In this document: piece after piece, positions 24,798-30,527 of the stretch
Layout: each line of letters begins with the position of its first letter
Position numbering within the stretch: position 1 is the first letter of the stretch
IMG/VR virus record: IMGVR_UViG_3300042402_001357
Span: 1-30,838 of that record
From: a virus
Strand: one strand, 5' to 3'
DNA length: 30,838 nt
The notes under the pieces: model-generated
The model's input: the letters and a program-made list of their open reading frames with translations, nothing else
Databases searched by the model: none
Told to the model about the DNA's origin: nothing
Program-made: the position numbers and the translations under genes

Positions 24798-26933
24798 TTA
24801 GGCGACGATGTTGCCCTGAAGACCACGGTAATCAAGGACTGCACCACCATAAATGTGGCGAACCTTGTAAGTGATCTTGTCGTTGCTGAACATTGAGCCG
24901 TTCGTTGGCTCGTCCTGCACGAACAGTTCAGGCTCTTCGCGTCCGTTGAGGAAGCCGATCTCAATTGTCGGAACATCCATTGGGGAAGCGGAGAGGAACC
25001 AGTTGTTTGTGTCTGTCCAGTACGGAACGCTGACTACCTCAAGCCCGTAGGTTCGGGTGTAGTTTGCGTCCGACGGAGCAGCAACGCCAGCGCCCGAAGG
25101 CAGGACGATGCTGTTCAAGACAGTGAACACATCATGCTCAAGGTCAACTGGAACAATCAGGTAGCGTGGCGTAATGCCAAGGCGCTTGCTGTTGCTCATG
25201 TCGGCTTGCTTCAGCATCTGAAGGCGAGCATTCTTGAGAGCCGTGGCGCTGAACGCCGTCGTTCCAAGGTTGCTGTGTCCAGCGACGAAGAGGGCAGTGC
25301 CGTCATAAATGTTGGCATTGTCCTTGTAGAAGTCAAACACAAACTCGTGAAGTGTCTGAGCGGCAGCCCGTCCAAGTCGGCGCGGAATGTCGCGGATTGC
25401 GCCAAGGTCGTCGTTCACGATCATTTCCATCGTGATGACCTCAGTGCCACCCTTCTTGCTTGGCGCGTAGGTTGCCTCTTCGTCCGTTGGGCTGGTGAGA
25501 GCGCCGTAGGCGCTGCCCTCAGTCACCGTGGAGAGGTTGTTATACCCACCGAAGCGCACGCGGCGCTGCGTTCGCATGTCGTTAACCGAACCAACGGTTA
25601 CCAACTTGCGCCACTGGTCAAGGTTTGGCTGGTTGTAGAAGTCCAACAGGCGGCGGGTGATGGAGTCACCAAGGATCTCTGCAAATGACGAGGACGAAAG
25701 TGCCTCTGTCAAGCGCGAGCCTTCCTGAATCTTGCCCGTGAAGGAGCGGTCGCCCGAAAGGTCAACATAGAGACCCTTGATGGACTGGTTGCTCTTGCCC
25801 GCAAGGATGTTATACACCCCTTCGGTCACGCGCTCCTGCTCGGACTTGACATCGGTCGCAACAGCGCCAGCGTCAACAACGGCAGGTGTGGTTAGGTCAG
25901 CAACATAGTCGGCTTCCGACTTAATCGCTGCATCAATCTGCTGCTCGTCAAGCACCTTGCCCTCAGTCGTCTCCCGAACGCGCTTCTTTGCGCTGTCTGG
26001 AAGGGTGACACCAGCAAGGCGAGCCTCAACGAGAGCCTTCGTCAAAATCGCGCCGACCTTTTCGGTCACGACCTCAACAGTAGGGGTCTCCGTCTGGTTC
26101 TCCACTGTTCCGTTCTCCTTCTGCGCTTTGAGCGCATCAACTGCCTCTGCGAGCAACTGCTCGTAGAGATCTAGTCGCACCCGCTTGAGTTCTTCAGGCA
26201 GGACGACACCTTCAGCGATAAAGCGAATTGCTTCATCCCTGTTCATAGTAACCCAATCAACTTGTGGCATTGCTTCAGCACTTGCTACCAAGCGCATAGG
26301 CATACCACCCGCAGCAGGGTTGACAACGACATCAACACTTTCAATCGTGTTGATCTTCGTTACATCAATGTATTGCTGGCGCGCTTCTCGCACTACGGAT
26401 GTTTCACCGTCACCAACAATAGAGAAGCCCACAAGGTCTGGCTTTCCGCGCTTGATAGCGTCCGCCATCATTGATCGGAGCCATGGGGCTGCTTCTGAAA
26501 TGTGGAAATTGGCAGCAACGCCAGAAACTCGCTGATTCTTCTTGGTTGGATGCGGAGCATCCTGAACCCAGCGAGCGCCTGTGTACCAGCCGACGAGCGA
26601 CTTTACGCCGCGCTCTTCTGGGTTGTGGTCAACGCCCTTACCAGCAAAGGCACGCGCCCCCTCAAAAAGCGGAACTGATTCCCGCAGAACTGCTTCTGAA
26701 TACCGCCGTCGGTTTTTGCTCATGCCAGCCTGAATCAACAAAACATCAATGACGCTTCCCGTTGGCTCAACTGATTCCATGATGAGACCTTCGGCTTCGT
26801 CGCCGTTTGGAATCTCAATCTCCGCTTCCTCTGGGGCGGCGGGAGCAACTTCCGTGGTCTCTGGGGCGATTTCTACAGTCTCTGGTGCTGGCTCGCCCTC
26901 AACGGCGACCGTCAACTCTTCAATTTCTGGCAT
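24798..26933 (-). CDS. prohead protease-scaffold-major capsid fusion protein
   Basis: A single 711-residue frame. Residues 1-50 are acidic and Pro-rich. Residues about 60-215 form a prohead protease: MSKNRRRYSEAVLRESVPLF, GVDHNPEER (H103), PDLVGFSIVGDG (S171), VDVVVNPAAGG. Residues about 225-370 are helical and acidic, as in scaffolds. Residues about 400-711 are the capsid (Mu gpT/HK97-type): LDQWRKLVTVGSVNDMRTQRR, EFVFDFYKDN, FVAGHSNLGTTAFSATALKNARLQMLKQ, TPRYLIVPVDLEHDVF. The protease would free the capsid protein during maturation. ATG at 26931-26933. Confidence 0.88.
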   Translation of the reverse strand: MPEIEELTVAVEGEPAPETVEIAPETTEVAPAAPEEAEIEIPNGDEAEGLIMESVEPTGSVIDVLLIQAGMSKNRRRYSEAVLRESVPLFEGARAFAGKGVDHNPEERGVKSLVGWYTGARWVQDAPHPTKKNQRVSGVAANFHISEAAPWLRSMMADAIKRGKPDLVGFSIVGDGETSVVREARQQYIDVTKINTIESVDVVVNPAAGGMPMRLVASAEAMPQVDWVTMNRDEAIRFIAEGVVLPEELKRVRLDLYEQLLAEAVDALKAQKENGTVENQTETPTVEVVTEKVGAILTKALVEARLAGVTLPDSAKKRVRETTEGKVLDEQQIDAAIKSEADYVADLTTPAVVDAGAVATDVKSEQERVTEGVYNILAGKSNQSIKGLYVDLSGDRSFTGKIQEGSRLTEALSSSSFAEILGDSITRRLLDFYNQPNLDQWRKLVTVGSVNDMRTQRRVRFGGYNNLSTVTEGSAYGALTSPTDEEATYAPSKKGGTEVITMEMIVNDDLGAIRDIPRRLGRAAAQTLHEFVFDFYKDNANIYDGTALFVAGHSNLGTTAFSATALKNARLQMLKQADMSNSKRLGITPRYLIVPVDLEHDVFTVLNSIVLPSGAGVAAPSDANYTRTYGLEVVSVPYWTDTNNWFLSASPMDVPTIEIGFLNGREEPELFVQDEPTNGSMFSNDKITYKVRHIYGGAVLDYRGLQGNIVA

Positions 26934-26937
26934 TCAT

Positions 26938-29691
26938 TCAGTCCTTTTCTTCAGTCTCGGACTCTTTGATAGCAGCCCTGATGTTTAGTTTACATCCACC
27001 CTGCGGTCTAATTACGCCCTCAACGATCTCGCAACCATTTGGGCTGACCCAGAACGCGCAGTTAGAACACATGCGACCTTCGTAGGCGTAAGGCGATTCA
27101 GTGACATAATTTGCCCCGTCAGTTCCCTTTTGCGTCCACTTCCCGTGCCGCTTGGCGATGGTCTCGTAAGCGTCGTACAAAGCGTTTGCATGCGGAGGCA
27201 GCACCATGTTTGCTTCAGCCAATTTGATGTCGTCATCGCCCATTGGGATTTCTTCCCCGACAAAATCGGCTGCGCTTGCTGGGTAAATACTCTGAAGAGC
27301 GGCGCTTTTTTCGGATGGCTCTGCTGGAATGTCAATGACCTCATCTTCTGGGGTTTCAGCAACCTCTGCAACGATGTCATCCCAATACTGCGATGCCTGT
27401 GGGTTCCTTCGCAGCACATCGGAATTCTGCTTTTCGCAACCGCAAAGCACCTCAACCCACATGGAAATAAGATCTGGGTAATCAACTGGCGCAAGTGCTG
27501 TTCCAATTGACTCCTCGTCTACCGCTTCGGTAATAGCCTCGTCAAGAGCCTGAAGCCGCTCCTCATTGGTCAAAATTCTCCTGTCGCCCTCTGGCGTAAC
27601 CTGCCCTCGTTTAATGACGCGATCCTTAACCCCCCTGCCTTCTGGGGTTTCTACAAATTGTCCAGTTTTTGCATCCCAAGTTGCAGCGACTACATATTTG
27701 AAAAGCGGCTGGTCTGGCTGACCAGTCTCCCTGTAAACACCTTGCTTTCCCGTTTTGGGGTCAATAACGGGTACGCGCTCAATGACAACCAACCTATCCC
27801 AAGCGGGCGGCTTGCGATTAATACCCTGAACAATTGCGGCGTTGGATTTCACATGTCCATCAGTGATCACCGCGTCTGGAACACTTCTCTTTAGCGGAAC
27901 CTTTGTTCCGTCTGTTGTTTTAATCTCAACTTCTTTTTTGTTCCTTGTCCTCACTGTGCCGCGAATACCGTCGGTTGGCGATGTGCCGATTCTTGTGGTG
28001 ATAAACACGCCAACGGTTTCGTGACCAGATCCCTGTGCGCCGTCGTAGATTCCTTTTCGCTTTCCATCAGACCCGTCGCCAGTGCCATCAAAAATAATGT
28101 CCGATTTCCTCGCAAGCCCCACCTCTAGGGCGCGCTGCGCGACGACGCTAGACTCCTCATGCACTCTTGCTGCGGCTGTTACTTTTGTCCTTTTGCCAGT
28201 AGTGTCTGTGACAATTCGGTCGGCGCGAGCCTCTCCATCTGCCCCCCAAATGCCATGTTTTGCGTGGTCAGAGTTAATCGTGGCTGCTGTTCCCGTCGGG
28301 CGCAGTGTTGTTGTGCCGTCTTCGTTTTGCTTTAATGCTGGCTGGGGAATGCGAATCCCAGCATCATCAAGCGCCCGCCGCATCTGCACGCCGTCTGGGT
28401 CTGTTTCGTCTGCAAGTTTCTTAAGAACTGTTGTTTTTCCAGATCCGCCACCGCCGCCCATGATGACAAGCGTTGGCTTTCCGTCTTCGCGGACAACGCC
28501 GCGATCCTTGACCAGTTCTGGCGTAAGAGTTTGCTGCGATACCAATTTGGTATGAAGCAGTTCTCGCGGCGCAGTAAGTTGACCGTCTGCGGTCGTGTGC
28601 ATGCTTAATGTGCCTTTTGGCTCCGTGGTCTTTAGCGAAGCAACAGAAGATGCCTTTGCTGCTGGCAAAGAGCCTAGTTCAAGCGTTTGAATTTGCCCAG
28701 CGGTGCTTGGCGAAGTGGGAGTGCTTGGCTCAGTAGAGACAATATCAATCCGCTTTGCCTGAAAAAGCGTTGGGTCTTGATATTCCTTGGGGTCGCTTGC
28801 GCCGCCACCACCGCCGCTGCTACCCGTGCTGCCAAATCGCCCCCTGCGATCTCGCGGCTGCCCAGCGGCATACTCCAGCAGAATCTTGTCAACGACTGAC
28901 TCCGCAGCCTCGCGAACCTTGTTGGTCATTTTTGGCGCTACGGCTTGAGCGCCTTGTCCAGTTCCTCCAACTGGGGGTCGCGTGGGCGCGGCTGAAGACT
29001 GGCTGCGATCTGCTCCCAGAGCGCCTCCGCTACCTTTCGTCGTTCCTCTGCCGTCATTTCCTTGAGGTTCTCTGGAACCTTGAGGATTACGGGCTTCTCC
29101 GATTCGTCCATCACCACCTGTAGGAATCTCCTTAAATGTTCTCAGATTAAAAATACTGATCTGGTTGCGATCTCGTCCTGCCCTTAGCGCAACGCTTCTT
29201 GCGTTGGCTGGAAATACTTCCGTCACATCTAAGAATACACGACCAGTCTTAACTTCGTGCCAAATCCCTAAGTGCATTTGCGGCTTCTCAAAAGCCGCCG
29301 CGTTCTTTTGCAGGAAGTTGTCAACCATGACAACCCCCTTGCCCCTGTCAAAGAAGTCTGACGCTTGATGGATTTCCCCAGCCACGCCCGTTGCAACTGC
29401 GTAGCCGCTCTTGGGCTGCTGCCCTGTCAAAATTACTGCGTCGTCGCCAATTTCGTTAATTGTTACGCCCGCTGGGATGGTTGCTCCACCAACCGCCCCT
29501 GTCTGGGCAACTGCCGCCGCAGGGTCAACCACACCCCCACCGCCGCCACCGCCGCCAGTGCCTGAAAATCTGCCCTTGCGATCCCTTGGTTGCCCAGCCG
29601 CATACTCCAGCAACGCCGCCTCAGCCACCAGCGCCGTAGCGCCGACAGAAACGACAATTGCCTCTAGGTCTTCAACAAACTTTTCTTCCAT
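26938..29691 (-). CDS. multidomain head-associated protein with zeta-toxin-type kinase
   Basis: 917 residues. In order: a helix (1-28); tag EYAAGQPRDRKGRF and a Gly run (29-53); a domain with FEKPQMHLGIWHEVKTGRVFLDVTEVF and RNQISIFNLRTFKEIPTGG (about 55-195), familiar from phage head-region proteins; a low-complexity linker; a second tag (273-297); a zeta-toxin-like kinase with Walker A GGGGGSGKTT (412-421), INSDHAKHGI, H511-EESS and IIFDGTGDG (D535); an acidic stretch; and a Cys cluster (C875, C878, C887, C900) like HiPIP-type ends of MuF proteins. Zeta kinases phosphorylate UDP-N-acetylglucosamine; here the target is not known. ATG (29689-29691) overlaps the upstream stop. Confidence 0.78.
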   Translation of the reverse strand: MEEKFVEDLEAIVVSVGATALVAEAALLEYAAGQPRDRKGRFSGTGGGGGGGGVVDPAAAVAQTGAVGGATIPAGVTINEIGDDAVILTGQQPKSGYAVATGVAGEIHQASDFFDRGKGVVMVDNFLQKNAAAFEKPQMHLGIWHEVKTGRVFLDVTEVFPANARSVALRAGRDRNQISIFNLRTFKEIPTGGDGRIGEARNPQGSREPQGNDGRGTTKGSGGALGADRSQSSAAPTRPPVGGTGQGAQAVAPKMTNKVREAAESVVDKILLEYAAGQPRDRRGRFGSTGSSGGGGGASDPKEYQDPTLFQAKRIDIVSTEPSTPTSPSTAGQIQTLELGSLPAAKASSVASLKTTEPKGTLSMHTTADGQLTAPRELLHTKLVSQQTLTPELVKDRGVVREDGKPTLVIMGGGGGSGKTTVLKKLADETDPDGVQMRRALDDAGIRIPQPALKQNEDGTTTLRPTGTAATINSDHAKHGIWGADGEARADRIVTDTTGKRTKVTAAARVHEESSVVAQRALEVGLARKSDIIFDGTGDGSDGKRKGIYDGAQGSGHETVGVFITTRIGTSPTDGIRGTVRTRNKKEVEIKTTDGTKVPLKRSVPDAVITDGHVKSNAAIVQGINRKPPAWDRLVVIERVPVIDPKTGKQGVYRETGQPDQPLFKYVVAATWDAKTGQFVETPEGRGVKDRVIKRGQVTPEGDRRILTNEERLQALDEAITEAVDEESIGTALAPVDYPDLISMWVEVLCGCEKQNSDVLRRNPQASQYWDDIVAEVAETPEDEVIDIPAEPSEKSAALQSIYPASAADFVGEEIPMGDDDIKLAEANMVLPPHANALYDAYETIAKRHGKWTQKGTDGANYVTESPYAYEGRMCSNCAFWVSPNGCEIVEGVIRPQGGCKLNIRAAIKESETEEKD
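28801..28875 (-). repeat. GQPRDRxGRF-Gly tag, copy 3 (mid-protein)
   Basis: Encodes residues 273-297 of the 917-aa protein: EYAAGQPRDRRGRF, then GSTGSSGGGGG. It directly precedes the kinase part. The DNA is similar to copies 1 and 2 but has Ser codons within the Gly run. Confidence 0.9.
29533..29607 (-). repeat. GQPRDRxGRF-Gly tag, copy 2 (N-terminal)
   Basis: Encodes residues 29-53 of the 917-aa protein: EYAAGQPRDRKGRF, SGT, then eight Gly. Directly precedes the RNQ-motif domain. Confidence 0.9.
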
Positions 29692-30527
29692 TAGTCTGGG
29701 ATCACCGTCAACTGAACCAAAACGCTGCCCTCCCTGTCTCCGCGAGTAATTTTATTGACCTTAAATCGCGTGTTTGGTGGCAAAAGCACTTCGCTCTCCC
29801 TGTTTTGACGAAGCCAAGTTCCTCGTGGGAAATTAGCGCGGGTGTGTTCAAAGTTTAGCGCCCTGCTTCCTTTTGGAATCGTAATTGAAACCATGACGCT
29901 GGTAGAGAAGTTTAGCGCAACCATTGGGTTTGTCGTTGTTGCTGTAAACTTTGGAATGACGATCTCTCCGCCCACGCCAGCCCGCGTTGCGGCAGTAATA
30001 AGCGCAGATTCCCCGCGCTGAAGTTTCACGCCGCGCACAACTTCCATGTCTTCTGTTGTCCTTGACCTTGAGGCTAGGTCGGTAAGCACCTTGGCATGCG
30101 TTCGGTCGGCGGGGGTGATCCTGTGTACGCCCTTATTTGGGTCGGTAATGATTGTTTTGCCTGTTACCGCGCCCTGAATTGCCTTGTAGCCAGTGCTGCT
30201 GTTCCACACCGAAAGCGCAAGCGTCTCTTCTGGCGTTGTAGCAATTTCTTTGCCCGTTACCCTAATCGGGGTGTCGTCGTAAGGATTTTGCGTGCCTGTA
30301 ACCCAGCCATTTTTAGTGTGTTCTGACTTTGACTCTAAAGTCTTTGCTTGGTCAATGGCTTCGCGGGCAAGCAAGTCTGCTGGGCTTTCGGGCGTAAGCG
30401 CGCCCCCGCCGCCACCACCGCCGCCAGTACCAGAGAACCGCCCCCTTCGGTCTCTGGGCTGACCTGACGCATATTCTACAAGCGCGTCATGAGCAACTGA
30501 GGCGAGATCACCGTCAATCGCCCCCAT
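29691..30527 (-). CDS. ADP-ribosyltransferase-like head-region protein
   Basis: 278 residues. Residues 18-42 carry the tag EYASGQPRDRRGRF and a Gly run. The rest fits an R-S-E type ADP-ribosyltransferase (VIP2/MuF-associated): R165 in MEVVRGVKL, FTATTTNPMVAL (194-205, the 'STS' strand), then RESEVLLPPNTRFKV with E244-x-E246. Such enzymes transfer ADP-ribose from NAD to proteins or nucleic acids. Its place upstream of the capsid gene and its tag suggest a protein carried in the head. ATG at 30525-30527 has a poor ribosome site, so expression may be low or coupled. Confidence 0.78.
   Translation of the reverse strand: MGAIDGDLASVAHDALVEYASGQPRDRRGRFSGTGGGGGGGGALTPESPADLLAREAIDQAKTLESKSEHTKNGWVTGTQNPYDDTPIRVTGKEIATTPEETLALSVWNSSTGYKAIQGAVTGKTIITDPNKGVHRITPADRTHAKVLTDLASRSRTTEDMEVVRGVKLQRGESALITAATRAGVGGEIVIPKFTATTTNPMVALNFSTSVMVSITIPKGSRALNFEHTRANFPRGTWLRQNRESEVLLPPNTRFKVNKITRGDREGSVLVQLTVIPD
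30402..30476 (-). repeat. GQPRDRxGRF-Gly tag, copy 1
   Basis: Encodes residues 18-42 of the ADP-ribosyltransferase-like protein: EYASGQPRDRRGRF, SGT, then eight Gly. Almost the same as copy 2 in protein sequence. Confidence 0.9.

Follow-up and report, generated by a model that had tools for sequence, protein, structure and literature searches.

What do a predicted ADP-ribosyltransferase (ART), a zeta-toxin-type kinase and a third domain, encoded side by side just upstream of a viral capsid gene, share that each should stand behind the same short peptide? The question is raised by virus record IMGVR_UViG_3300042402_001357 of IMG/VR, analysed here as a stretch of 30,838 bases (the window), in which two adjacent genes form what we call the cassette. 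A preliminary description, made from the letters of the window, had reported three near-identical copies of the peptide (hereafter the tag) in two genes next to the capsid gene, each followed by a different domain: an ART with R165 and E244-x-E246, a domain with an RNQ..IF motif, and a P-loop kinase resembling zeta toxins, with no antitoxin gene nearby. These observations were borne out, the ART residues being exactly those named. To our knowledge, how phages choose the proteins of the head interior is known in detail for few systems. We see about an even chance that the three modules of the cassette are effectors brought into the phage's own head by means of the tag and later ejected.

One peptide ahead of three modules

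The two genes and their tags are as follows.

29691..30527, minus strand: gene of the tagged, predicted ADP-ribosyltransferase, 278 amino acids, with R165, F-T-A-T-T and E244-S-E246
26938..29691, minus strand: gene of the two-tag protein, 917 amino acids, in the order tag, RNQ domain, tag, zeta-type kinase, four-Cys tail
30402..30476, minus strand: tag 1, residues 18-42 of the ART protein, EYASGQPRDRRGRFSGT plus Gly8
29533..29607, minus strand: tag 2, residues 29-53 of the 917-residue protein, EYAAGQPRDRKGRFSGT plus Gly8
28801..28875, minus strand: tag 3, residues 273-297, internal in the 917-residue protein, EYAAGQPRDRRGRFGSTGSSGGGGG

All three tags are in frame and read E-Y-A-[AS]-GQPRDR[RK]GRF followed by a Gly-rich run (at residue 22 of the 278-residue protein and residues 33 and 277 of the 917-residue protein), and they precede the ART, the RNQ domain and the zeta-type kinase, respectively. 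The repeated unit takes in a further 8-12 residues ahead of the tag, which are helix-like by eye and end in L-x-E-Y. This ending is present in all 12 tag copies of the window's lineage; as E-Y was part of the search pattern, it is the L that was tested.

Among relatives (loci in viral contigs are given by L numbers), the cassette occurs in four forms: an ART gene with an RNQ-zeta gene (window, L004, L005); an RNQ-zeta gene but no ART gene (L007/L144, L008); zeta alone behind one tag (L010, L011 and L014; for L012 and L013 the tag count is the only basis); and ART, RNQ and zeta as three tagged genes of their own, with 301, 271 and 668 codons (L145). The counterpart of tag 3 lies near the N-terminus in L010, L011-L014 and L145, and we attribute internal tag copies to gene fusion. 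On these comparisons the tag is the unit boundary of the cassette modules. The slot upstream of the tagged kinase gene in L010, L011 and L014 holds other accessory genes, by eye collagen-like or fibre-like, thioredoxin-like and small Cys-rich ones.

Several of these loci would also suit a tag that is mainly a joint at the DNA level, providing repeated homology for the swap, loss or fusion of modules and having no function in localisation. In L008, similarity to the DNA ahead of the window's ART gene and to the beginning of that gene (84.5%) runs as far as the tag, where similarity to the RNQ-zeta gene takes over; homology of L010 and L014 to the window starts at tag 3; and the first tag of L144 is 94% identical to the window ART tag over 84 bases, against 76% for the RNQ-zeta gene of L144. 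The first 664 bases of L008 thus hold a chimeric gene start and an apparent module deletion. The codons of the tag argue otherwise: the 14-codon cores of the window tags differ pairwise at 6, 10 and 9 synonymous versus 1, 2 and 1 nonsynonymous codons, and the 66 pairs of lineage copies differ on average at 6.7 synonymous and 1.6 nonsynonymous codons of 14. Because the copies differ mostly at synonymous codons and the peptide recurs with other flanks in other phages (see below), the tag peptide itself is under selection. A DNA-only origin of the repeats was accordingly rejected, and a joint with no role in localisation seems to us quite improbable; module swapping can be a consequence of the shared tag.

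The three modules and their surroundings

By family, and as far as sequence comparison can tell, the 278-residue protein is an ADP-ribosyltransferase of the R-S-E type. A profile of four sequences, two of which (L039, L081) are strong ARTs on their own, finds solved R-S-E ARTs at E 6e-10. The window protein alone scores 22.4 bits (E 8.5e-5) with Pfam ADPrib_exo_Tox, slightly under the cut-off of 23.4, which its relative in L145 exceeds with 24.9 bits. The columns of E244 and E246 are invariant across all seven aligned tagged proteins, the alignment of L079 being doubtful there, and in the cleaner alignment A8 the R, both E and F-x-x-T are kept in four of four. Among named phages, tblastn gave no match to the window ART at E 0.01, and for the ART relative in L133/L145 only matches at E 0.6 or worse.

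The 917-residue protein divides into the following regions.

29107..29529, minus strand: RNQ domain, about residues 55-195
27772..28554, minus strand: zeta-toxin-type kinase region, about residues 380-640, with P-loop GGGGGSGKT, HEES and DGTGDG
26977..27084, minus strand: C-terminal four-Cys motif C-x2-C-x8-C-x12-C (C875, C878, C887, C900), residues about 870-905

The motif that names the RNQ domain, R-[ND]-Q-I-S-I-F, is kept in four of four homologues. In Synechococcus phage S-CBP42, a segment of an internal virion protein matches the domain (34% identity, E 2e-5); weaker matches are to phages of Rhodococcus and Arthrobacter (hypothetical proteins, E 0.03-0.3), and the weakest to internal virion proteins of Syn5, SS120-1 and P60 (E 0.6-5). 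Its structure model has a mean predicted local distance difference test score (pLDDT) of 55, at which we make no fold claim. A search of viral folds with this weak model returned three matches at E 0.001 or better – a homologue named as zeta toxin domain containing (92% identity), a 269-residue phage protein (46%) and a 130-residue viral protein (20%) – from which no function followed. Matches of the RNQ profile to PDB sequences were confined to ATP synthase (best E 0.25) and were judged to be chance.

The kinase scores 46.8 bits with Zeta_toxin (PF06414; cut-off 22.3), the best single stretch spanning 45 of the 199 model positions. HEES, DGTGDG and the four cysteines of the tail do not vary among the window protein and five relatives, all with a P-loop of the form GGGGG[SA]GK[TS]T (six of six sequences). 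The structure model of the whole protein (mean pLDDT 34) is too weak for any fold claim. The Cys tail weakly resembles high-potential iron-sulfur proteins among PDB sequences (E 0.1) and matches the Iro iron oxidase model at E 0.002, far below the cut-off.

Both genes lie tightly packed against the capsid gene.

24798..26933, minus strand: major capsid protein, 711 amino acids, capsid domain at 411-705, without the tag

The start of the 917-residue gene overlaps the stop of the ART gene by one base (TAATG), and 4 bases separate its end from the capsid gene, all on the minus strand. The cassette contains no immunity or antitoxin gene, and as its genes overlap or abut, with the capsid gene next downstream, there is no room for one between them. 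What lies upstream is revealed by the L005/L143 contig (41.7 kb), which is identical to the window across the cassette genes: a 2281-residue protein (601-7446 in L005) with a MuF domain at 258-320 and, near its end, a weak PI3/4-kinase-like match below cut-off. L145:1558-7551 likewise encodes a giant MuF protein (about 2000-2300 residues in L005/L145), and in L145 a portal gene precedes it. The giant MuF protein is probably a polyvalent head protein lying just beyond the window.

The nearest named relative by capsid is Microcystis phage Mae-JY22 (38% over 93%), in which the stretch between the upstream genes and the capsid gene has no tagged module and encodes a 305-codon protein that looks MuF-like by eye. 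As Mae-JY22 is without a tagged module at that place, we regard the cassette insert as accessory. The location bears on whether the effectors are instead late products whose action, for example on rival phages or on late responses of the host, takes place in the producing cell, with the head-gene neighbourhood serving as an expressed late region and the tag as a leader that has no packaging role. The setting of the cassette among head genes and its lack of an immunity gene are in keeping with this, while the accessory nature of the insert and the presence of the tag inside MuF and portal fusions and scaffold-position proteins (below), which are in the head or build it, speak against it. We think such late action in the producing cell unlikely.

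The tag in other phages

To see where else the tag occurs, viral contigs were scanned with a degenerate DNA pattern for GQPRDxxGRF, with the reversed peptide as control. The pattern matches at least 119 stretches and the reversed peptide 6, so the recurrence is not due to chance. All of the at least 119 loci listed read in frame and reduce to 94 proteins after removal of near-duplicates; the counts that follow are among these matches listed. Six proteins were not tallied in either class (three that are related to the window protein, and L073, L088 and L092), and the others were divided by eye, on flanks and length, into 37 class-2 and 51 class-1 proteins. Four class-2 members (L018, L031, L042, L097) seem to be GC-rich DNA read in the wrong frame, and are kept in the denominators.

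Class 2, with four members of the window's lineage, comprises portal, MuF and effector proteins, and 23 of its 38 tags have Y or F within the three residues ahead. Matches to PHROGs, which were tallied by family such that one protein can fall in several, include one portal family (8 of the 37), a head-morphogenesis family (5) and a minor-head family (5); Pfam matches include ART (5, two from the window's lineage), MuF (4) and portal (3+1). The preliminary description had placed PRDxxGRF elements beside MuF or portal proteins with toxin domains, and such proteins do occur. For example, L072 encodes MuF (127-248), tag (264) and ART (327-498) in a single protein, and likewise L056 has MuF (76-183), tag (199) and a PBECR2-like region (222-299), and L049 has portal (56-394), tag (535) and a PI3/4-kinase-like region (668-713), these last two effector matches being below the Pfam cut-off. 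The tag also joins MuF to an unassigned region in L023, and portal to unassigned regions in L037, L070 and L090. Free tagged ARTs are found in L039 and in L081, where two tagged genes lie next to each other and Pfam matches one of them. Domain order varies, with the tag ahead of the portal domain in L132 and of the MuF domain in L079.

Two of these loci show further elements. L079:3636-5363 has the tag at its start, a related element HDERGRFCETGGGG in mid-protein and the MuF domain at its end; the second element hints at a wider HDxxGRF tag family. The head-morphogenesis-type protein of L085:6336-9632 has an intein-like (HINT) insertion before the tag, just under the Pfam cut-off.

The range of the tag proves wider than that description allowed, as class 1 consists of scaffold-position proteins. 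Their tags mostly have the form GQPRDExGRFAxK between acidic flanks rich in Pro and Ala, and lie at a median of 0.14 of protein length, and against PHROGs these proteins yielded no function except one match to 'head scaffolding protein'. Of 89 listed neighbours of tag genes (42 downstream, 47 upstream), 72 were used (39 and 33), five of the window's lineage and twelve others, mostly short, being dropped. Among the 72, a single portal family is matched by 18 and a single major head protein family likewise by 18, other portal and head families ranking lower; class-1 proteins thus lie between portal and major head protein genes, the position of a scaffold. Of four tried, three have matches of 30-35% to the protein of Pseudanabaena phage Pam5 that is named as its scaffold; tblastn of the fourth, L033, gave no match. 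The Gly run, which had been described as part of the tag, is so in the window; elsewhere at least four Gly in the next 12 residues follow only 13 of 38 class-2 and 1 of 51 class-1 tags, and as only part of the tags have one we consider it accessory.

The form of the tag with Y, as in the window, was found in 21 stretches of viral contigs (10 of the window's lineage) and in 1 among the genomes of 84,980 species, two collections that differ in size such that the figures give no comparison of rates. The single cellular match, a kinase-like open reading frame without head context, was judged to be chance. Two tblastn matches of the tag alone in named phages (E 4-7) were disregarded.

Tagged effectors, portal and MuF fusions and scaffold-position proteins thus link the tag to the head by association. 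It is possible, although we would lean against it, that tailed phages generally use GQPRDxxGRF as a peptide for loading heads, in scaffold-position proteins, portal/MuF fusions and free effectors alike. Several observations weigh against head loading by the tag. The Pam5 scaffold is without the tag, and in Pan3 the tag of the corresponding protein has diverged, so not every scaffold requires it. Tags of the two classes differ in their flanks and could be convergent. In the window's own lineage, neither the giant MuF protein nor the capsid protein carries the tag. Small or odd tagged open reading frames without a link to the head exist (e.g. L028, L042, L091), as does a tagged family of 216 residues without a known head role (four listed cases: L027, L040, L094, L108). 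Finally, the RNQ domain of the S-CBP42 internal virion protein is untagged, and hypothetical proteins of Rhodococcus phages (E 0.03-0.06) outscore the RNQ matches of the other cyanophages.

The position of the tag between head domain and effector in several proteins would also suit a processing or hinge element, in which the tag is the cut site of a maturation protease and the Gly run a hinge, head entry depending on another signal; the protease might cut effectors from head parts or strip an N-terminal propeptide. In T4, the protease cleaves behind the Glu of short motifs, ITE and LTE among them (PMC5694885, in the part of the text that treats them), and the L-x-E before the tag in all 12 lineage copies fits proteolytic removal in the window's lineage. 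It does not fit a general role, as L-x-E is not kept in other tag families. Head maturation protease families of PHROGs match 8 of the 37 class-2 proteins (phrog_595) as well as the capsid protein; in single proteins, however, it is the MuF region or the capsid domain that the matching stretches cover. The N-terminal part of the 711-residue capsid protein may be a candidate maturation protease, but scans of that protein showed no protease domain, and none of the 25 of 40 families listed for the 72 class-1 neighbours is a protease family. We rate a processing or hinge element as unlikely.

Returning to head loading, we hypothesize that the tag (helix-like stretch and GQPRDxxGRF, here with a Gly run) would bind a partner inside the procapsid during head building, candidates being the inner face of the capsid, the portal/MuF ring or the core, and that the modules would leave the head with the DNA into the next host. 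There, the ART might modify one or more host proteins, the zeta-type kinase might phosphorylate a nucleotide-sugar-like substrate, and the RNQ domain might act like part of a cyanophage internal virion protein. Packaging, binding partner, ejection and substrates are all steps that we infer. If this is true, an enzyme placed behind GQPRDxxGRF becomes head cargo, the window having three such modules adjacent and one pair fused, and the tag by itself would suffice to find effectors in phage genomes, even effectors without a known domain. One short peptide common to effectors, portal/MuF fusions and scaffold-position proteins of unrelated phages would also make the choice of head cargo directly testable.

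Comparison with known head-linked effectors

No description of the tag was found in the literature searched, a scope that leaves aside subscription papers and in which sequences within figures would escape. Among the texts available to the search, literal forms of the motif matched only a Cutibacterium DNase paper, the titles and abstract openings listed for targeting and cargo peptides yielded nothing on the tag, and the accessible text of PMC5512222 and PMC5576092 has no word beginning with GRF.

A close parallel in arrangement is found in phage T4, where Alt and the internal proteins are effectors of diverse kinds, an ADP-ribosyltransferase among them, that share a short N-terminal sequence in a head-assembly context. 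According to the relevant parts of PMC3012670 and PMC5694885, the capsid targeting sequence (CTS) is the only element common to otherwise diverse T4 internal proteins; in the loci compared here, the ART, RNQ and zeta modules similarly start with a shared short sequence. The likeness drawn here is one of arrangement. Unlike the T4 CTS, one window tag is internal through fusion and a Gly run follows, and for the window proteins packaging and cleavage are hypothetical. Another case from the head interior is phage P1, whose DarA-Hdf pairs lie on the inner head surface (PMC12810830, in the portion available).

Phage effector modules linked to the head are also known as MuF polymorphic toxins (PMC5576092, in its accessible text), and outside the window the tag joins MuF to ART or nuclease-like domains. 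In contrast to such toxins, the window proteins have no MuF domain (no PF04233 match) and no downstream immunity gene, MuF in this lineage being a separate upstream gene, that of the 2281-residue protein seen in L005. The kinase resembles zeta toxins (PF06414) in its P-loop core above the Pfam cut-off, and differs from them in being tagged, in having no antitoxin gene in the cassette and in its long extension with the four-Cys motif.

Fusions of MuF with zeta and with ART, and the idea of a head-packaged ART, have been published (PMC5512222, PMC9503650, in the sections that deal with them). Like those polyvalent proteins and head-packaged ARTs, the cassette proteins lie beside head genes and are multidomain and effector-rich. 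The 917-residue protein joins the RNQ and zeta modules in one putatively virion-linked polypeptide. Unlike in polyvalent proteins, a short shared peptide replaces the MuF or portal domain in the window modules. Head-linked MuF-ART and MuF-zeta effectors are thus known, and what the window adds to them is the tag, with a possible general role.

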